IMG/VR virus record: IMGVR_UViG_3300033183_000033
Location: 1 to 23,397 of that record
Length of the DNA stretch: 23,397 bases
From: a virus
Strand: one strand, 5' to 3'
Shown here: piece after piece, positions 5,114 through 17,915 of the stretch
Layout of the letters: every line of letters starts with the position of its first letter
Numbering within the stretch: the stretch's first letter is position 1
Notes under the pieces: generated by a model
Told to the model about the DNA's origin: nothing
Database searches by the model: none
The model's input: only the letters and a program-made list of their open reading frames with translations
Program-made: the position numbers and the translations under genes

Positions 5114-6624
5114 TGGCACAGCAACTTCGCAATATCACAATTGCCGCTCCAGGATTTGCGGGTATCAACACCCAAGATAGTCCGATTGGTATCGGCACTC
5201 AGTTTTGTTTGATTGCTGAGAATGCTGTGATTGACCAGTTTGGACGAATCGGTGCTCGTAAGGGCTATGAAGTCCAGACTGCAGATAACACTGCATTAGG
5301 CTCTGCACCCTTACAAGGTATCTTTGAGTTTCTTGATACCGATGGCACGGTAACCACAGTATCGACAGGGAACAACAAAGTCTTCACAGGTGAATCCACA
5401 CTTACAGACATTACTCCTGCAGCGGCTTCGATCAGCGGTGATAACTGGACAGGAGTTACCTTTAACGGTTTCTTGTTCTTATTCCAAGACTCGCAAGACC
5501 CAATCTACTATGATGGAACCACCTGTGATCTTGTCGAAAACCATGCAAACTATTCAGGGACAGTTCCACAAGGTAATGAAGTTATTGCCTCATTCGGACG
5601 GTTGTGGGCTGTAAGCGCAGATAAACGAACTGTTTACTGGTCAGACCTCTTAAACGGCTTTGCTTGGGATACCGGTAGCTCAGGTAGTATCAACGTCAAT
5701 AAAGTATGGGCTGATCAGTCTGACGAGATTCAAGCACTGGCTTCACATAATGGATTCTTGTTAATCTTTGGTAGACGACAGATCCTTGTCTACAAAGGGC
5801 CACAAGACCCTGCGACAATGGAACTGGCTGACACAATTGTTGGTGTTGGTTGTATTGCTCGTGACAGCTTGCAAAAGACTGGTACAGATATCTTGTTCTT
5901 GGCTGATTCAGGTGTCCGTAGTTTTAATCGTGTTGTGCAAGAAAAGTCGATGCCAATGCGTGATATTTCTAAAAACGTGCGTAGTGATTTGATGGGATTA
6001 GCGTCAATTCAGACCAATCCAATTAAATCAGCCTACTCAGAAGACGAAGCATTCTATATTATTAGCTTCCCAACCAGTAATGCACTGTATTGTTTTGATA
6101 TGCGTACTACACTAGAAGATGGTGCAAATCGCGCAACATTATGGACTGGTTTGGCTCCAAGAGCATTCTGCACCAAGCGTGATGGCACATTGTTGTTCGG
6201 TGATAACAATGGGATATCGGAGTACAAAGGATATAACGATAATGATAATAGTTATCAGTTCCGGTACTTCTCAGCCTATTTAGACTTTGATGCTCAATCA
6301 AATATTAAGTTCCTGAAGAAGTTAAACATCACGATTATCGGTGGTCAGAATACTCAAGCAACCTTGAACTGGGGTTATGATTATACATCGGCATACACCC
6401 GTGAAGTATTTAACTTTGCATCGGCAAACCTCGCAGAATACGGTATCTCTGAATACAACACAGAAGATGCAGAATACAATGCCAGTGTTGTTATTCAAGA
6501 ACCACGAGTAAACACTTCGGGATCAGGTACTGTTGTACAAATTGGATTGGAAGCACAGATTAACAATGCTCCATTCTCTATTCAAAAAATTGATATACAC
6601 GCATTAGTAGGAAGGATTGTCTAA
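5113..6624 (+). CDS. Tail hub / packaged-DNA stabilisation-type protein
   Basis: A 503-residue, beta-strand-rich protein. It opens with APGFAGINTQDSPI and ENAVIDQFGRIGARKGY, the start typical of proteins that cap the adaptor ring and form the tail nozzle. Repeated blade-like segments follow (NGFLFLFQDSQDPIYYDG, FGRLWAVSADKRTVYWSDL, HNGFLLIFGRRQILVYKG, TDILFLADSGVRSF), suggesting a beta-propeller core. The length is closer to P22 gp10 (about 470) than to T7 gp12 (about 790). It ends with the TAATG overlap to the next gene. It would act in the virion tail, keeping DNA in and guiding ejection. The general role is well supported; which of the two families it belongs to is not settled. Confidence 0.8.
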   Translation: MAQQLRNITIAAPGFAGINTQDSPIGIGTQFCLIAENAVIDQFGRIGARKGYEVQTADNTALGSAPLQGIFEFLDTDGTVTTVSTGNNKVFTGESTLTDITPAAASISGDNWTGVTFNGFLFLFQDSQDPIYYDGTTCDLVENHANYSGTVPQGNEVIASFGRLWAVSADKRTVYWSDLLNGFAWDTGSSGSINVNKVWADQSDEIQALASHNGFLLIFGRRQILVYKGPQDPATMELADTIVGVGCIARDSLQKTGTDILFLADSGVRSFNRVVQEKSMPMRDISKNVRSDLMGLASIQTNPIKSAYSEDEAFYIISFPTSNALYCFDMRTTLEDGANRATLWTGLAPRAFCTKRDGTLLFGDNNGISEYKGYNDNDNSYQFRYFSAYLDFDAQSNIKFLKKLNITIIGGQNTQATLNWGYDYTSAYTREVFNFASANLAEYGISEYNTEDAEYNASVVIQEPRVNTSGSGTVVQIGLEAQINNAPFSIQKIDIHALVGRIV

Positions 6625-6857
6625 TGAGCAATTATACTAAGACCGTCAACTTTGCGGCTAAGGATGACCTTGCTTCGGGTAATCCTTCAAAGATCGTTAA
6701 AGGGTCTGAGATTGATACGGAGTTTAACAACATTGCGACTGCAGTAGCTACGAAGTCTAACACTGCAAGTCCAACATTTACCGGTACTGTTACAGCAGCA
6801 ACACTTACCGTCACTGGTACAGCTACAATCGGTACAATTGACGGAGGAACATACTAA
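6624..6857 (+). CDS. Short tail-fibre-like protein
   Basis: This 77-residue product has two parts. Residues 1-45 (VNFAAKDDLASGNPSKIVKGSEIDTEFNNIATAVATK) match a phage tail-fibre N-terminal pattern. A repetitive Ser/Thr/Gly part (SPTFTGTVTAATLTVTGTATIG) resembles the beta-strand stalk of fibres, but stops after about 25 residues, so no receptor-binding domain is encoded here. It might anchor to the hub and recruit a longer fibre made elsewhere, or be a trimmed fibre. Both ends are TAATG overlaps with the neighbours (hub before, ejection protein after). Confidence 0.75.
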   Translation: MSNYTKTVNFAAKDDLASGNPSKIVKGSEIDTEFNNIATAVATKSNTASPTFTGTVTAATLTVTGTATIGTIDGGTY

Positions 6858-7822
6858 TGGCAACTGATGCAGAACTCTATGATACAGCAATGGGAGACAC
6901 AACATCAGGTGAATTTGACCTTGGTGGATTGCTTGGTGGTTTATTCTCTGAAGGTGGTATCTCCAACTTAATCGAAGGATTAACTGGACTCTACGCACTT
7001 GAAACACAGCAAGAACAAGCTCGTGGTTTAGGTGAAGCAGTTGCTACAAAAGCTGAAGATATCGCTACGAAGGCCGGTGAAATGGCGGCTTTCCAACCGT
7101 ACACAATCACTGGCGCACCTGGTTTAGGTGATATCACAATGGATGCTTCAGGTATCACATTGGGTATGACTCCAGAGCAACAAAAGTTTATTTCAGATGC
7201 GTTAACAGGTGCTCAAACAACTCTGGAAGGTTTGTTAAAGCCTCGTGCAGAACGTGAAGCAGAGATCTTCCAAGCAATTGAAACCGCTCGTCAACCTATC
7301 ACAGACCGTGAGCGTTTGGCGATGGAAAGTCGTTTAGCGGCACAGGGGCGTTTAGGCACACAGACAGCGGCATTTGGCGGAACTCCAGAAGCTCTGGCAA
7401 TGGAAAAGGCGATTCAAGAACAACGATCTGCCGATATCCTTGGTGCGATGACTCAAGCAGGTCAAGAACAAACACTTCAACAAGAACTGTTAAGTGGATT
7501 ACTTGGAGCGGCTTACACACCACAATCACAGGCTCTTGAATTGCTTGCCGGTGGTATTGATCCTGCGAAGCTTGCACAGTCTGGACGCTTGTCAGCAAGC
7601 GAAGCTTTACAAGCGGCTATCTCACCGATTGCTCAGGCAACCACAGAAGGTGAGAAGATTGCAATGGGATACACCACTCCATTAATTCAAGCCTACACAG
7701 GATTGTTAGCACCAACACTTCAGGCAGGTGCAAGTGCAATTGGAGCCGAGGATATTGCCACACAAGCAGGTGAGTATTTCCAGACAGCAGTTGAAGACCT
7801 CTTCAAAAGTATCTTTGGTTAA
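6857..7822 (+). CDS. Ejection / internal virion protein A
   Basis: A 321-residue, alanine- and glutamine-rich, mainly helical protein. It has a glycine-rich hydrophobic N-terminal stretch (GGLLGGLFSEGGISNLIEGLTGLYAL). A central block follows with ESRLAAQGRLGTQTAAFGGTPE, a motif I associate with podovirus internal virion or DNA-injection proteins, and an amphipathic C-terminus (TAVEDLFKSIFG). It starts at the TAATG overlap and heads a run of three large genes of the same character, as in T7 gp14-gp15-gp16 or P22 gp7-gp20-gp16. Such proteins leave the virion first and build a channel across the cell envelope. The assignment rests on composition, motif and order; the exact counterpart is uncertain. 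Confidence 0.75.
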   Translation: MATDAELYDTAMGDTTSGEFDLGGLLGGLFSEGGISNLIEGLTGLYALETQQEQARGLGEAVATKAEDIATKAGEMAAFQPYTITGAPGLGDITMDASGITLGMTPEQQKFISDALTGAQTTLEGLLKPRAEREAEIFQAIETARQPITDRERLAMESRLAAQGRLGTQTAAFGGTPEALAMEKAIQEQRSADILGAMTQAGQEQTLQQELLSGLLGAAYTPQSQALELLAGGIDPAKLAQSGRLSASEALQAAISPIAQATTEGEKIAMGYTTPLIQAYTGLLAPTLQAGASAIGAEDIATQAGEYFQTAVEDLFKSIFG

Positions 7823-7833
7823 AGGAAAGAATA

Positions 7834-9426
7834 ATGGCAGAGACTAAACCATCTATCGACACCTTATTCGGTGGTCTTGTGTCGGACTCAGCGTTACAGG
7901 ACTATACCAAAGCACGTGATTTAGCAATGGGTCAACAACTTGCGGGTGTTGCTCCAGAGCGTGTTGGATTGCTGTATGCTCCACAAGCGGTAACAGCGGC
8001 AGGACGACTTGGACGTAGAATTGCAGGACGTGATCCACGAACAGAAAAAGAAATCGAAATGGCGACAAATCGTGATCTGTTCAAAACAATTAACGAAGAA
8101 GCCCAACGTCAATTCCCAAATGATCGTACCGCACAGCTTAACTACATTGCAAACGAACTCACGAGCAAAGGTAAAGTTGTCGAGGCTCAACGTGCTCGTC
8201 AATTAGCTCAAGAGTCTAGAAAGGCTGATGTAGACATTGCAAAGACTAAATCAGAAGAATCTAAAAACAAAGCATTAGAGGCCAAGGCTAAGGCTGAAGC
8301 GGAGACGGAAATCAATCTACGTAAGAAGTATGATGCTGAAGCATTGAAGAGCGAAGCACAGGCTAAAAAGGCTGAAGCAGACCAAAAGAAGGCTGAAGCA
8401 GAGGCTTCTCTCATTCCTGAAGAAAAGAAGAGATTACTTGCAGAAGTTAAGAAGCTTGAGGCAGACGCAAAACGACTGAACGCATTAGCAGACAAAGCAA
8501 CTCGTGAAGCCGGTGTCGTCGGTCTTGGTTCCATCGATCCTGATAAGTTTACTCCAGAGTCGTTAGAACAGTATCAAGAAAGTGTGCGTCAGGGTAATCC
8601 AAACTATGGGTTATTGGTTGTCCGTGATGAAGTCGATATGACGACTTATCAAAAAGAATTACAAGCGGCATTCCCTAATGATCCTGCAAAACGTTCTCAG
8701 TTATTCCAGAAGTATATCACTGAAAAATCTCAGCGTGGTGGTTTGGATGTTGCATTAGACCGGACAGAACAGGAATGGGTATTTAACCACAATGCAACCG
8801 GTATCACAGAATATCGATCTCGTGGTGAGAAATCACAACAAGTTGCTCAGGCTGTCGATGCATTAATCCCAACAGTAGATCAAGCTATCACAGGCGCAGG
8901 TGCTGACTTAAAATCATTCATTCAAAGCGTCGCTCAACAGCTTGGTATTCCTGCAGACTTCGGTGATTTGACTGGAACTCAATTAATTAACCAGTTCCTA
9001 TCACAAGAAGTTCTTGGGGCGGCATCAGGTCTAAGTGGTGCATTGTCTGACAAAGATATTAAATTCTTGCAAGACACTGTCGGTGGTATCGGTAACACAC
9101 CAGAGGCTATTCGAGTCGCATTAGCGGCCCTGAAACAACGTAAGCTTGTTGCACGTCGCACTGCTGATCAAGCGCAGACAATGTTTGCTGAAAAGAATAA
9201 ATCATCTCTGACACTCACCGATACATTAAACTTTGATCAGATTGAAGAATCTGTACGACAAGAGCTTGGACTACCAAATCCACGTGTATTCGGTGGAGCC
9301 TGGATTTTATCAGATGGTACAGTTGATCCAGAGATTGCAGCCAACTACACAGATGAACAATATGAACGAGCGACTCCAGAAGCTAAACGAGCTTTAGCAG
9401 AATACTTCCGTAGTCTTCAGCGATAA
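7834..9426 (+). CDS. Ejection / internal virion protein B with long coiled coil
   Basis: The 530-residue protein has a short N-terminal domain (IDTLFGGLVSDSALQDY...). A highly charged Ala/Lys/Glu-rich coiled coil runs from about residue 120 to 225 (KAEADQKKAEAEASL, KKLEADAKRL), then a mixed domain to the end. An 'AAFPNDPAKR' segment echoes an earlier 'RQFPNDRTAQ', hinting at an internal duplication. AAGGAAAG lies 5 bases or so before the ATG. As the second of three large genes after the tail proteins it fits the middle ejection protein of podoviruses (T7 gp15 or P22 gp20 position). The coiled coil could form a tube in the periplasm; this is inference. Confidence 0.75.
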   Translation: MAETKPSIDTLFGGLVSDSALQDYTKARDLAMGQQLAGVAPERVGLLYAPQAVTAAGRLGRRIAGRDPRTEKEIEMATNRDLFKTINEEAQRQFPNDRTAQLNYIANELTSKGKVVEAQRARQLAQESRKADVDIAKTKSEESKNKALEAKAKAEAETEINLRKKYDAEALKSEAQAKKAEADQKKAEAEASLIPEEKKRLLAEVKKLEADAKRLNALADKATREAGVVGLGSIDPDKFTPESLEQYQESVRQGNPNYGLLVVRDEVDMTTYQKELQAAFPNDPAKRSQLFQKYITEKSQRGGLDVALDRTEQEWVFNHNATGITEYRSRGEKSQQVAQAVDALIPTVDQAITGAGADLKSFIQSVAQQLGIPADFGDLTGTQLINQFLSQEVLGAASGLSGALSDKDIKFLQDTVGGIGNTPEAIRVALAALKQRKLVARRTADQAQTMFAEKNKSSLTLTDTLNFDQIEESVRQELGLPNPRVFGGAWILSDGTVDPEIAANYTDEQYERATPEAKRALAEYFRSLQR

Positions 9427-13642: not shown

Positions 13643-15415
13643 TTAGCCTTGACAGCTAACACACTCCTCACCTTCAAAGTCCTTCAGCGCATTTCTGTCC
13701 ACCGATGTTCCAACCTTCTCCGCAGTAACGCCCGCAGTCGTGCGTAGGTAATATAGTCCTTTAAGCCCTTCCTTCCACGCCTTGAGATGTACTTGATTAA
13801 CAATAGCCTTGTCAGTACCGGACGGGAAGAAGACGTTAACACTCTGGCCTTGGCATATGAAATCCTGTCTTTTAGCGGCGTGTTCCACCACCCATCCCTG
13901 ATCGAGTTCAAACGCAGTCTTAAACGTGTCTTTCTCAGCTTCGGAGAGGAACTCCAAGTGCTGTACGGAGCCTTCGTTTTCGATGATACTTTGCCAAACC
14001 TTCTTGGTATTCTGCCCGTGTGCATTTAAGACCTCCTCCAAATACGGATTACGAACTGTGTGACTACCCGCACGAGTACGATGCACATAGCAGTTACTAA
14101 TGCGAGGCTCAATACTGGCAGAGCAGCCACACAGAATAGAAGAGTTAGCATTGGGAGCAATAGCAAGTAAATGCATATTCCTAACCCCAGTGCCAGATCC
14201 ATCAGGACACTCACCACGCTCTGTTGCGAGTTGGTAGGTTGCATCGAGTGATTGCTCCTTAATGTCTTTAAAGATCTGGTAGTTCTCTGAGGTTGCTTGC
14301 CAACTCTCCCACGCTATTCCTTTGCTTTGGAGGTAGCCGTGGAATCCCATTGCTCCAAGACCGACTGAACGCTCTCTGTAAGCTGAGTAGACAGCTTTTG
14401 ATAGTTCTTCTGGTGCGTTGTCAATAAAGTATTGAAGCACGTTGTCCAAGAATCGGATAAGGTCACCAACCATGCCGCTTGTTCGCCACTCATCGTACTT
14501 TTCGAGGTTGACGGAACTGAGGCAACAGACTGCTGTACGTTCTTCATCTGTTGCGAGATGGATTTCATTGCAGAGGTTGCTACCATTAATTGTGAGTCCA
14601 AGCCTTTTCTGAGCGTCTGGTAAGCTTCGTCTGGCTGTGTCGATAAAGTTAAGATATGGACTGCCAGTTCTGAACCGAGCTTCAAGGATTCGTTGCCATA
14701 GTCTGCGAGCTTTGACTGTATCTCTGACAATTCCTGTATTCGGGTCTGTAAGATTGAATTCTCCATCATTGATCACTTCTCCCATAAATTCATCTGTGAT
14801 GTTTACTGCGTTGAATAAATTAAAGCACTTACGGTTGATATCACCACCTGTCGGCACTTTAAAACTAATAAATTCTTCGATATCTGGATGAGACACATCT
14901 AAGTAGGCTGCGTAGCTTCCTTTGCGTGTCTTTCCTTGTTTATAAGCTGTCATCTGTGCATCGACAACTTTCATGAACGGTATCGGACCTGGTGCAATGT
15001 CGGACACACCTCTGACATCGCCCCAATGACCACCAACTCCACCACCTTTAACAGACAGCCAAGCTACTTCGCCATTATGCTGAATAAGGCTATCAAGATT
15101 GTCACCCACGTAAGTAAGGAAACAAGAAATAGGAAGACCACGATTACTTCGATCTCCGTCAGGTGCGTTACTGAGGACAGGTGACGCAAACATAAACCAA
15201 CCTTTCGAAGCATAGTCGTAAATGCGTTGTGCAAGATCGAGGTCACCATAGCAATAAGCTGTTGAAGCCCGTGCAAAGGCTTCTTGAGGACTGGTTTCAT
15301 GTTCAAGCATATAGTAGTCCCGCATGAGCGTAATTGCTTGATCACTGAGTCGGTTGTCCCTATCATAATCAATCGTTATCCCAAGATGCGTCTTCGTCGA
15401 ATGGGGTGATTTCAT
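13643..15415 (-). CDS. nrdA: Ribonucleotide reductase class I large (catalytic) subunit
   Basis: It reduces ribonucleoside diphosphates to deoxy forms with the radical from the small subunit, supplying dNTPs for phage replication. In the 590-residue product the catalytic set is complete: C98 (PISC), C298 (CCLSS), N280/C282/E284 (SNLCNE), radical-path Y555-Y556 (LYYLRTT) and the C-terminal redox pair C585-C588 (CVSCQG). The N-terminus lacks a complete ATP-cone domain, so dATP feedback inhibition is probably missing; the length (E. coli NrdA is about 760) agrees. I chose the ATG at 15415 with GGAGA upstream; the ATG at 15439 lacks a ribosome site. The start lies within the end of the small gene upstream. 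The small-subunit gene is about 1 kb downstream. Confidence 0.93.
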   Translation of the reverse strand: MKSPHSTKTHLGITIDYDRDNRLSDQAITLMRDYYMLEHETSPQEAFARASTAYCYGDLDLAQRIYDYASKGWFMFASPVLSNAPDGDRSNRGLPISCFLTYVGDNLDSLIQHNGEVAWLSVKGGGVGGHWGDVRGVSDIAPGPIPFMKVVDAQMTAYKQGKTRKGSYAAYLDVSHPDIEEFISFKVPTGGDINRKCFNLFNAVNITDEFMGEVINDGEFNLTDPNTGIVRDTVKARRLWQRILEARFRTGSPYLNFIDTARRSLPDAQKRLGLTINGSNLCNEIHLATDEERTAVCCLSSVNLEKYDEWRTSGMVGDLIRFLDNVLQYFIDNAPEELSKAVYSAYRERSVGLGAMGFHGYLQSKGIAWESWQATSENYQIFKDIKEQSLDATYQLATERGECPDGSGTGVRNMHLLAIAPNANSSILCGCSASIEPRISNCYVHRTRAGSHTVRNPYLEEVLNAHGQNTKKVWQSIIENEGSVQHLEFLSEAEKDTFKTAFELDQGWVVEHAAKRQDFICQGQSVNVFFPSGTDKAIVNQVHLKAWKEGLKGLYYLRTTAGVTAEKVGTSVDRNALKDFEGEECVSCQG

Positions 15416-15569
15416 CAAACTCTCCGATAAGTTCTTCATATTTTGATTCTATAATATCGCCACAGCGATTAACTAAGTCCTCAGAGGTCAACTGCAGAGT
15501 CTCTAACAGTGTGACCTCATCTAACTTAGTCAGTTTGTCTTTCAGTTCTTGTAGTGTTATCACGGACAC
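15369..15569 (-). CDS. Small acidic protein overlapping RNR large subunit
   Basis: The 66-residue frame uses GTG at 15569 (or a second GTG at 15563, better spaced from AGG). The product reads TLQELKDKLTKLDEVTLLETLQLTSEDLVNRCGDIIESKYEEL in its helical part, described here by KLDEVTLLETL and TSEDLV, and ends in an acidic tail (DEDASWDND). I recall such 'LDEVTLLELLEIxSEDLV' proteins in many phages beside RNR genes, with no known role. The last 47 bp overlap the RNR coding region, so the two are probably translationally coupled. Confidence 0.7.
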   Translation of the reverse strand: MSVITLQELKDKLTKLDEVTLLETLQLTSEDLVNRCGDIIESKYEELIGEFDEITPFDEDASWDND

Positions 15570-15581
15570 GAACCTACTATT

Positions 15582-15812
15582 TTAATAAAATTCGATAAGC
15601 TTGTCAAGGTAGTGACGTGCTTTTTCGAGATCAATTTTACCACCTTTATCGTCGCAACGAGCTAGGTATTTGATCACATTCCCCCAGATGAAGCCTTTGA
15701 ATGCCTCTTCAGACATCCAAGACTCCATTGCATCCCAAGGCTGCACAGATTTACTGAGATAGTGATCCCCACCGATTTGGTAGTTCTTCGCCATCTCATG
15801 TAAATCACTCAT
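15582..15812 (-). CDS. DUF3310 protein (SaV-like)
   Basis: The 76-residue product carries the DUF3310 signature: GGDHY near the N-terminus, then KSVQPWDAMESW, GFIWGNVIKYLARC, DKGGKIDLEKARHYLDKLIE. Such small proteins are widespread in phage replication regions. The family's biochemical role is not firmly known (some annotations link it to nucleotide kinases). The start overlaps the upstream gene by 8 bp. Its place between the PP-loop gene and RNR is consistent with nucleotide metabolism, but this is inference. Confidence 0.85.
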   Translation of the reverse strand: MSDLHEMAKNYQIGGDHYLSKSVQPWDAMESWMSEEAFKGFIWGNVIKYLARCDDKGGKIDLEKARHYLDKLIEFY

Positions 15813-16038
15813 CGCTTGGCTTCTCTGGGCAGTAGATACCGATGTCTTCTAAGTTTCTCTCAACATCAAATGCATAACCATAAGATGACTGCAGCACTTT
15901 CACAACATCGTTAAGAATCTCTGACCATCCCACTGCATTATCATACGTGCCACGGAACTCATGTGTTTTACCCCAGGCAGTGATTTCAAAGTTAACATGG
16001 AACTTCTCTTCGTCAGGCCATAGTAAATCTCTGTTCAT
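15805..16038 (-). CDS. Small hypothetical protein
   Basis: A 77-residue product with an N-terminal beta-like part (FHVNFEITAWGKTHEFRGTYDNAV) and a helix (WSEILNDVVKVLQSSYGYAFD), ending acidic. No known motif. The ATG overlaps the stop of the PP-loop gene (ATGA) and its end overlaps the DUF3310 gene by 8 bp, so it is a member of the same translated chain. Not recognised. Confidence 0.65.
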   Translation of the reverse strand: MNRDLLWPDEEKFHVNFEITAWGKTHEFRGTYDNAVGWSEILNDVVKVLQSSYGYAFDVERNLEDIGIYCPEKPSDE

Positions 16039-16907
16039 AACTCTAACTCCAATTGTGGTTGCTCATCAAAATTGACTTCACACGATTCAGAACATCCATT
16101 ACTGATATCTAAATAATGTTGATCAATAAATTCATTATACCCTTCTTTTGCCATATCTCGTAGATCCTGTACAGATTTAAAACCTCTAAAGAATTTAATT
16201 TCTTTACCTAGTTTATTCGCAACTGCACCTGTATTTCCATATAACTGTTCCATGCGTTCTGGAAACTCAAATGCTTCAGGGCGTTCATCAAGTAAGGTCA
16301 ATAACTTTCTGAACGATTTCTTCCAACACCACAAACAATTTCCATGATGTTCTGGAATATCTAAATCAAACGGTTGTCCTCGCCACCAGTTTAATACATC
16401 TTGTTTTGTAACATGATGCTCCACCAAAGGATAAATCAATGAATTTTCTGCAGCCGTGGCAGACATTCTATCAATTTCATCCACACGAATACCGATAGCC
16501 ATACGATAATCAGATTTTTTTAACCCTAACGATCTCACATAAGATTGAATGGGGTATAATTTCAATTCTCTTGTGCAGTGAGGTGACTTGGTAAACGGTA
16601 TACCATACTTTGCAATCACAGCTTCAAACGGAGTCCCGTCACGGGAAGCAGTCTGATAATTCACTTTCTGAAATGAAGTACCGACACCCTTCTCTGGAGT
16701 CACTAGAGCTTCAAGCCATACTGTATTGAAATCGAAAAACGTATCACAGTTATGTACAAACTCTAAGGTACGATCATCTTCTTGTCCGGTATTTGCAAAC
16801 AAGACAATGACATCTTTCCACTGCTCTCGTTGTTGTAACAACAAGCGAGTCATATATGCGGAAGTGCGTCCACCGCTAAAACTAATAATTAGCGTTTTGT
16901 CTTGCAT
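16035..16907 (-). CDS. PP-loop ATPase, PAPS reductase-like family
   Basis: The 290-residue protein has the PP-loop nucleotide-binding motif SFSGGRTSAYM (residues 9-19), an LFANTGQED strand, GIRVDE (139-144) and HCTRELK (110-116). These mark the adenine nucleotide alpha-hydrolase fold shared by PAPS reductases, DndC and tRNA thiolases. Cysteines stand at 111, 191, 194 (CLWC), 272 and 276 (CSESC), a set that could hold Zn or an Fe-S cluster. The CysH catalytic ECGLH tail is absent, so classical sulfate reduction is unlikely. Phage members of this type are often annotated 'phosphoadenosine phosphosulfate reductase'. It sits between nucleases and RNR, which would fit nucleotide, DNA or tRNA sulfur modification. 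Activity not established. Confidence 0.8.
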   Translation of the reverse strand: MQDKTLIISFSGGRTSAYMTRLLLQQREQWKDVIVLFANTGQEDDRTLEFVHNCDTFFDFNTVWLEALVTPEKGVGTSFQKVNYQTASRDGTPFEAVIAKYGIPFTKSPHCTRELKLYPIQSYVRSLGLKKSDYRMAIGIRVDEIDRMSATAAENSLIYPLVEHHVTKQDVLNWWRGQPFDLDIPEHHGNCLWCWKKSFRKLLTLLDERPEAFEFPERMEQLYGNTGAVANKLGKEIKFFRGFKSVQDLRDMAKEGYNEFIDQHYLDISNGCSESCEVNFDEQPQLELEL

Positions 16908-17230
16908 ACCAACTCCATAAAATGATCCAAGTCCACAACAGCCAGTGCTTTGGATCTGTTTTGTTTAATTACAACTAGCGGTTCGTATTCACCGTGCCCT
17001 GAAGCCTGTTCATAATAGTTAAACACAGCGATCTTGGCTAAGTTCTTACACTCAACAGAATACGGGAACAGCTTCCTTGCTGCCGGAGATAACTGAACAT
17101 CCTCTCCACCTGCCCCCATACTTGTGGAGCGTACATCATCAGGTTCAAGTTTCGGAAATGCAGTTAAGATTGCATCACGAACGGCTTGCTGTAGTCTGCG
17201 TCCTTTTGCTTTAGCTGATTGAGCTTTCAT
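16889..17230 (-). CDS. PD-(D/E)xK endonuclease, resolvase-like
   Basis: This 113-residue protein reads KGRRLQQAVRDAIL, RSTSMGAGGEDVQLS and YSVECKN in order. D44 and E60-x-K62 give the D...ExK active-site pattern of the PD-(D/E)xK nuclease fold. Small proteins with this 'MGxGGEDVxLS...SVECKN' pattern are common in podovirus replication regions. They probably cut branched DNA before packaging or help degrade host DNA, the role of T7 endonuclease I (gp3), to which I see no direct sequence match. It overlaps the exonuclease gene by 20 bp and the PP-loop gene by 19 bp. Fold call is strong; substrate is inferred. Confidence 0.78.
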   Translation of the reverse strand: MKAQSAKAKGRRLQQAVRDAILTAFPKLEPDDVRSTSMGAGGEDVQLSPAARKLFPYSVECKNLAKIAVFNYYEQASGHGEYEPLVVIKQNRSKALAVVDLDHFMELVCKTKR

Positions 17231-17915
17231 TCGACTTTACCGTTGGTGGTGTAAACTGATCGCCTGTTGACCGAAGCATATATAACAGATGACCATTTTC
17301 GATAGCTCTGTCATACCCCAGTTTCTCAACAATGATCTCCCACATTTCCTCTTCTGTTTTACCTGCAAGCAGTGCCGTAGCTCTCTTGTCACCGATACCT
17401 CGAACACCTTCGATGTTGTCAACAGCATCGCCTGTCAAGAACTGCTTGTAGAAATTGAACTTGGCAGTTTCTTCGTCAACGTAGTAGTGGAGTCTTTTCA
17501 CAAAGTTGTAGTGATTTCCGACAACCTGGTCCAAGTCTTTATCCAGTGATACAATGACACCTTTGTCGCCTAGTTCAGTGGCCTCAATCGCAACCGCATC
17601 ATCGGCTTCCATACCGTTCCACACTGTCGCATCCCATGACCACGCTAAGTAGTCTCTGAGAGCTTGGTAGTGCGTAGGCTTCTTGTTACCTTTACGATTC
17701 GCTTTATAAGGCCGAGTAACGGCAAAATCATCCCTGAAATTGCCCTTACCAGTTAGGTGTAGCGTCCATGTGGTGCAGAATGGAAGATCAAACATGATCA
17801 TGTCTTCCAAGAATCCCGCCATCGTGCGGATTGCAACTGCCTCGTCCTCATTAACAGTTGCAAAGCCGATACGGTAAACCAAAATGTCTGCATCAATGAT
17901 CGCATGATGACACAT
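17211..17915 (-). CDS. 5'-3' exonuclease (FEN/T7 gp6-like)
   Basis: The 234-residue product has the acidic metal-binding residues of the family. These are D8/D10 (IIDADIL), E104-D105-D106 (GMEADDAVAI), D125/D127 (SLDKDLDQ) and D163/D166 within the helix-hairpin-helix GDAVDNIEGVRGIGDKRA (162-179). It should degrade duplex DNA from 5' ends and remove RNA primers. In T7, gp6 does both and supplies nucleotides from host DNA. The length is somewhat below T7 gp6 (about 300). The ATG overlaps the SSB stop (TAATG). The arginine-rich loop (RPYKANRKGNKK) matches the DNA-binding arch. Confidence 0.88.
   Translation of the reverse strand: MCHHAIIDADILVYRIGFATVNEDEAVAIRTMAGFLEDMIMFDLPFCTTWTLHLTGKGNFRDDFAVTRPYKANRKGNKKPTHYQALRDYLAWSWDATVWNGMEADDAVAIEATELGDKGVIVSLDKDLDQVVGNHYNFVKRLHYYVDEETAKFNFYKQFLTGDAVDNIEGVRGIGDKRATALLAGKTEEEMWEIIVEKLGYDRAIENGHLLYMLRSTGDQFTPPTVKSNESSIS

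Follow-up and report, generated by a model that had tools for sequence, protein, structure and literature searches.

A marine phage gene usually annotated as a PAPS reductase belongs to the lambda NinC family and encodes a candidate SspD-like sulfur transferase

We find that a marine phage gene normally filed as cysH belongs to the lambda NinC family. We think it most likely that its product puts a sulfur mark on DNA and does not serve host sulfur metabolism, as the NinC family is sister to SspD, the PP-loop enzyme of the SspABCD system of single-strand DNA phosphorothioation, and the nearest bacterial relatives of this gene adjoin a DNA-sulfur-dependent antiviral operon. In its full form, our proposal is that the protein would be an SspD-like ATP-dependent sulfur transferase of the NinC family that acts on DNA and self-marks the phage DNA, a reading drawn from sequence comparisons to which we give an even chance. 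It also offers lambda NinC, so far without an assigned function, a specific role that can be tested.

The DNA analyzed is a 23.4-kb virus contig (hereafter the window, 23,397 nucleotides at full length) in which the plus strand carries the large open reading frames (ORFs) of the first half and the minus strand carries the genes for replication in the second half. The ORF of interest is real and lies on the minus strand, a detail absent from the earlier note on this DNA (Table 1). The locus is ordered helicase-primase, endonuclease VII, PolA, gp2.5-like protein, 5'-3' exonuclease, RusA-like nuclease and NinC-family gene, followed by a 77-aa ORF, a DUF3310 protein, a 66-aa ORF, NrdA and NrdB. 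This bears out the placement of the gene between DNA nucleases and ribonucleotide reductase (RNR), with an exonuclease beyond the adjoining nuclease and three small ORFs before NrdA. As the gene overlaps the RusA-like nuclease gene by 19 nt at its start and the 77-aa ORF by 4 nt at its stop, it probably belongs to a compact transcription unit. The same arrangement was seen in outline at L002, L003, L004 and L040 (proteins 74-87% identical), and comparison with L002 (dN 0.11, dS about 2.5, which is saturated) indicates strong purifying selection on the protein. A megablast search of the whole window against phages returned no close record, and we recognized no methyltransferase, DndD or DndE in the window. 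Together, the ORF, its cysteine pattern and its gene context are far beyond chance.

Table 1. Positions of the NinC-family gene, its neighbors and its conserved motifs in the window.
Feature	Position	Strand	Evidence or remark
NinC-family PP-loop gene (P0001), 290 aa	16035..16907	-	ORF, PHROG 424, PADLOC, HHalign, tree
RusA-like Holliday-junction-resolvase-like nuclease, 113 aa	16889..17230	-	PHROG 244 E 1e-14; no Pfam match
5'-3' exonuclease	17211..17915	-	
77-aa ORF	15805..16038	-	Kept in L002 and L040; no Pfam match
DUF3310 protein, 76 aa	15582..15812	-	Pfam E 1.7e-15
66-aa ORF between NinC-family gene and NrdA	15369-15569		No Pfam match
Ribonucleotide reductase large subunit (NrdA)	13643..15439	-	
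PP-loop SGGRTS, residues 11-16, ATP-pyrophosphatase type	16860..16877	-	110/110 members
C111-T-R-E-L-K116, first predicted Fe-S ligand	16560..16577	-	C111 and K116 111/111; alignment
GIRVDEIDR, residues 139-147, conserved nucleotide/substrate motif common to SspD	16467..16493	-	
C191-x2-C194, second and third predicted Fe-S ligands	16326..16337	-	111/111; alignment
C272-x3-C276, C-terminal tail, proposed persulfide carrier	16080..16094	-	92/98 and 108/109

The window protein is covered over its full length by PHROG 424, the lambda NinC family (E 4.6e-55), which is present in 493 of 50,697 phage records, and it contains the complete family signature (SGGxTS, CTRxLK, GIRxDE, NCxxC and CxxxC). 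The earlier note had singled out five cysteines (C111, C191-x2-C194 and C272/C276) and called for a check of their conservation; all five are where it placed them. In an alignment of 111 NinC-family members less than 80% identical to one another, residues C111, K116, E144, R147, C191 and C194 are invariant, as are S11, G12, G13 and S16 of the PP-loop, and the two C-terminal cysteines, which belong to a tail motif CxESCE, are nearly so (Table 1). A sixth cysteine, C54, is variable (81/111). Using the window protein as query, phmmer found no relevant match among sequences of solved structures, and NCBIfam profiles gave only weak, sub-threshold matches. NinC is listed as poorly understood (PMC3224144), and in the literature searched, which was mostly outside subscription journals and preprints, we found no paper that assigns it a function. 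Under laboratory conditions lambda can do without ninC (PMC10695390), which counts against the DNA-sulfur reading. NinC-family genes of some Klebsiella and Salmonella phages (H5-H7 and H31) are labeled 'head morphogenesis protein' or 'holin', apparently wrongly.

A PAPS reductase label is what this protein would usually receive, as anticipated, since that is the name given to both Pfam PF01507 ('PAPS_reduct') and PHROG 424. If the label were right, this would be an auxiliary metabolic gene that encodes a genuine PAPS/APS reductase (CysH) and enhances assimilatory sulfate reduction, and CysH-type structures are indeed nearest to the protein in fold. However, the PF01507 match covers only the N-terminal 58 residues. 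Among reference sets taken from the genomes searched (19 CysH, 9 DndC and 14 SspD), the C-terminal catalytic motif ECG[L/I]H is present in 18 of the 19 CysH proteins and SGGxxS in none of them, the CysH loop being SFGxxS or looser; SspD, DndC and the NinC family all have SGGxxS and none has ECG[L/I]H. The missing ECGLH tail had been pointed out before, and we find that the motif is absent from the window protein and has no conserved counterpart in the family alignment. In our tree the 19 CysH rows form one clade (100/99) with NinC outside it. From the intact SGGxxS ATP loop, the missing ECG[L/I]H, the separate clade and a far closer profile match to SspD, we conclude with high confidence that the window protein is not CysH, in agreement with the earlier view that this is no CysH metabolic gene; a reductase role is highly improbable.

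This conclusion bears on how phage sulfur genes are counted. Phage cysH genes are taken as a viral drive of sulfate assimilation, for which the NinC family has the wrong active site; surveys have counted 167 (PMC10914622) and five (PMC8725595) such genes in this way, and a 2025 review marks phage cysH genes as 'not validated' (PMC12713726). A tblastn search with E. coli CysH matched 9 of the 50,697 phage records, a lower bound given the single query and the sensitivity of tblastn. Two of these 9, one of them a 691-kb Salmonella contig, are more than 90% identical to the bacterial gene and so are probably host sequence. The NinC family is found in 493 of the same records. Many of the genes reported as 'viral cysH' may be misnamed.

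The closest characterized relative of the NinC family is SspD. The HHalign score of NinC against SspD was 208.9 (E 2.7e-30), in comparison to 78.6 (E 3.8e-10) against DndC and 72.8 (E 6.8e-10) against CysH, and PADLOC matched the window protein itself to SspD (E 5.8e-15). In a maximum-likelihood tree we recovered four clean clades in which NinC (100/98) pairs with SspD at 95/83; the window protein is sister to the SspD clade and not inside it (100/98 for each clade). As this tree is midpoint-rooted and the branches that join between CysH and DndC are long, we used only the grouping of NinC and SspD away from these two. The suggestion of DndC-like DNA chemistry in the earlier note is supported as the best reading at present, with SspD rather than DndC as the nearest relative. 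A separate search with SspD matched 121 phage records, 27 of them from Mycobacterium phages and others from Pelagibacter and Roseobacter phages, which suggests further SspD-like branches among phages.

Partner genes are where the kinship argument is most exposed. SspA, SspB and SspC were absent from the window and from every NinC locus examined, and none of the phage NinC loci examined had SspB, SspC, DndD, DndE or Pbe partners adjoining. To our knowledge, no phosphorothioation system described so far can do without partners of this kind, and the absence of a known one (SspB/SspC or DndD/DndE) in phages is the weakest link of the DNA-sulfur reading. For a lone phage gene, targeting would have to be supplied by a DNA-binding partner from the host or phage or by a fused methyltransferase.

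To relate the conserved cysteines to structure, we used an AlphaFold2 model of the window protein (98 sequences; mean pLDDT 91.9, pTM 0.87), in which residues 266-290, containing C272 and C276, are disordered (pLDDT under 50). The earlier note had proposed a fold comparison with CysH, DndC and TtuA/TtcA. In ours, the reductases of APS and PAPS came first (Z 11.3 to 10.5), level with two [4Fe-4S] proteins, the tRNA thiolase NcsA (Z 10.5) and LarE (Z 10.4), with TtuA at 9.2; DndC was not among the matches listed, which is not evidence against kinship. In a profile alignment with APS reductase, C111 corresponds to the first cysteine of the CC pair, Thr112 to the second, and C191/C194 to CxPC. Of the four ligands of the APS-reductase [4Fe-4S] cluster, three are therefore matched and the fourth is replaced by threonine, leaving three ligands and one open position. 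DndC has been reported to have a three-cysteine cluster (PMC10853773). We infer from the aligned sequences that the three core cysteines may hold a [4Fe-4S] cluster. The suggestion that all five cysteines make one metal or Fe-S site is thus retained for C111, C191 and C194, and probably fails for C272/C276, whose disordered tail more likely relays sulfur. By its sequence this CxxxC tail looks like the counterpart of the C-terminal CxxC of SspD, and it may act as a persulfide carrier. A NinC-family protein of an Acinetobacter plasmid (L039:4983-5759), encoded directly after a C5-methyltransferase, has no C-terminal cysteine tail and offers a natural test of the role of the tail; 140 Acinetobacter plasmid records match the window query.

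The closest bacterial relatives of the window protein (57-58% identical) are encoded in a Crocinitomicaceae MAG (L116) and a Flavobacteriaceae MAG (L117), and form one clade (100/99) with it and with L042, whose NinC gene adjoins MT-A70 and what looks like the end of a C5-methyltransferase. In both MAGs the NinC-type gene is the first of a NinC-PbeA-PbeB-PbeC-PbeD operon: PbeA follows 16-27 nt after it (PADLOC E 1e-140 to 1e-153), then a PbeB-sized ORF (about 55 aa), PbeC (E 1e-61 to 1e-82) and a 142-aa ORF at the PbeD/DndE position. This last ORF had no Pfam match, and was called PbeD/DndE by position and by weak similarity (1.2e-7) to the PbeD-position ORF of L215. The Pbe-type CxC-ATPase and DndE-like genes of these operons are the only DndD/DndE-type partners found at NinC loci. 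As the two NinC proteins are 79% identical to each other, against 41% for PbeA, 25% for PbeC and 24% for PbeD, the link holds across diverged modules.

We compared these operons with 15 Pbe loci from other genomes. SspD is directly upstream of PbeA in L211, L214 and L216 and three genes upstream in L210, DndC with a neighboring ATPase (DndC/DndD-like genes) is found at L206, and a cysteine desulfurase is directly upstream in L207-L209; L212, L213, L215 and L219 have none of SspD, DndC or cysteine desulfurase. The NinC gene of the two MAGs is thus in the slot held elsewhere by SspD. PbeABCD immunity was shown experimentally to require phosphorothioation, with phosphorothioated virus escaping, and known Pbe systems are described as occurring with DndCDEA, with methyltransferases or alone (PMC6459918). 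According to a 2024 analysis, some DndD/CxC-DndE systems have no DndC and no close PP-loop replacement is known (PMC10853773); in L116 and L117 the NinC-type gene is a candidate to fill precisely that gap. A NinC-type Pbe partner is not mentioned in the portions of these two papers that were available. A sample of about 750 Bacteroidota genomes in addition to G001 and G002 contained no further NinC-Pbe operon, so that Pbe-linked NinC is rare, with two cases only, which counts against the DNA-sulfur reading.

Other NinC loci are associated with DNA methyltransferases. Unbiased clustering of neighbors gave no universal partner gene; its leading clusters, at 10 loci each, consisted of a C5 methyltransferase and a DnaB-like helicase. 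Methyltransferases occupy 19 of 577 gene slots within 3 genes of a NinC gene and 11 of 798 at a distance of 6-15 genes, a modest signal (2.4-fold, p = 0.02). NinC is fused to Dam in a 523-aa protein of L022 and in a 479-aa protein of Vibrio phage 44E38.1, with six related records, and a 1099-aa ORF on a 382-kb contig of Mixta tenebrionis (L149:6393-9689) joins a C5-methyltransferase, NinC and a D12 adenine methyltransferase. Phage P1 Dmt has both methyltransferase parts and no NinC, and the Mixta ORF resembles a Dmt-like double methyltransferase whose C5 half is separated from its N6 half by an inserted NinC domain. At L131 two tandem NinC-family genes (6301-7200 and 7205-8062) are preceded by a C5-methyltransferase; phages with two 'cysH' genes have been reported in a survey (PMC10914622). 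The chi protein gp52 (L034:1413-2096), 'phosphoadenosine phosphosulfate reductase' in RefSeq, was dropped as a homolog, being a Dam N6-adenine methyltransferase (PF05869, E 5.3e-30) whose label probably spread from NinC-Dam fusions.

We consider it likely that the window protein, with its ATP-pyrophosphatase-type PP-loop, is of the ATP-dependent, Fe-S, sulfur-transfer type, and propose that it would work as follows. C111, C191 and C194 would hold a [4Fe-4S] cluster in which one iron is open, ATP would adenylate an oxygen of the substrate, and a host cysteine desulfurase (IscS or SufS) would supply sulfur, which would take the place of the adenylated oxygen after passing through the cluster, the C272/C276 tail or both. 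In the Ssp and Dnd systems, SspA binds SspD, the probable sulfur acceptor, and IscS can replace DndA (PMC7188994). The substrate would likeliest be DNA, which we infer with slightly better than even confidence, and the product a phosphorothioate or a thiolated base; for phosphorothioate in particular we put the chance a little below even. Modification during phage replication would then label the phage DNA as 'self' and protect it from immunity that senses sulfur or modification. Of the substrates raised before (nucleotides, DNA or tRNA), DNA is our best reading, and we found no specific support for tRNA.

Thiolation of tRNA by a TtcA/TtuA/NcsA-like enzyme, tuning host or phage translation, would fit the fold tie with NcsA, the TtuA match and three cysteines at cluster positions. 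We regard it as quite unlikely given the grouping with SspD by both profiles and tree, the replication and recombination neighbors in the window, L002-L004 and L040, and the DNA methyltransferases or Pbe genes found elsewhere. Somewhat less doubtful, although still unlikely, is an ATP-dependent adenylation that activates or modifies a nucleotide or base (e.g., a dNTP or methylated base) and yields no phosphorothioate. The base methyltransferases seen as fusions and neighbors, the proximity of RNR and DUF3310 in the window and a nucleoside deoxyribosyltransferase adjoining in chi would all suit such a role; against it, the chemistry of SspD and of the PbeABCD link is that of backbone sulfur. 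The protein could also be a non-catalytic counter-defense decoy that mimics SspD/DndC and sequesters host desulfurase or jams Ssp/Pbe complexes, as might be expected of a phage gene akin to a defense component with no partner genes nearby. We judge this improbable, as all predicted catalytic and cluster residues are kept in about 110 diverse members. The known phage Dnd inhibitor JSS1_004 was considered and set aside, being a kinase unrelated to NinC.

The preferred reading, an SspD-like sulfur transferase that would act on DNA, can be extended to the family as a whole, lambda NinC included. Its members would then be stand-alone writers of DNA sulfur modification that give phage DNA a 'self' mark recognized by phosphorothioation-dependent immunity and that in some bacteria partner PbeABCD where DndC/SspD is missing. 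We offer this extension tentatively and think it rather doubtful; if it is true, phage DNA would be naturally sulfur-modified.

In comparison to known systems, the window protein is of one family with lambda NinC (Orf290), with which it shares 34% identity, the five cysteines, the PP-loop and its length; the lambda gene is in the nin recombination region, whereas its counterpart in the window belongs to a cassette of replication and RNR genes. SspD has in the same order the SGGxxS loop, CTRxLK, xIRxDExxR, CxxC and a cysteine pair at the C-terminal end. NinC differs from it in being a separate, fully supported and mostly phage-borne clade of about 24% identity with no adjoining SspA, SspB or SspC, and in having its CxxxC in a longer disordered end, whereas the CxxC of SspD is in the last six residues (14/14). 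DndC resembles NinC in its SGGxDS loop, RWCTxxxK and CWxC cysteines, and its reported three-cysteine cluster (PMC10853773) resembles the pattern of three ligands and one open position; it is longer (most about 390-490 aa), has no C-terminal cysteine tail and is a weaker profile match. With CysH/APS reductase the NinC family has in common the PP-loop fold and three of the four APS-reductase cluster positions, but it has an ATP-type loop, no ECG[L/I]H and a threonine in place of the fourth cluster cysteine. TtuA, NcsA and LarE are fold matches (Z 9-10.5), and the three invariant core cysteines of the NinC family, at ligand positions, may hold a [4Fe-4S] cluster with an open iron as in these thiolases. 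Finally, the likeness to PbeABCD, with its CxC ABC-ATPase, is one of gene order, in that two bacterial NinC relatives open Pbe operons, whereas the window gene itself is not Pbe-linked.
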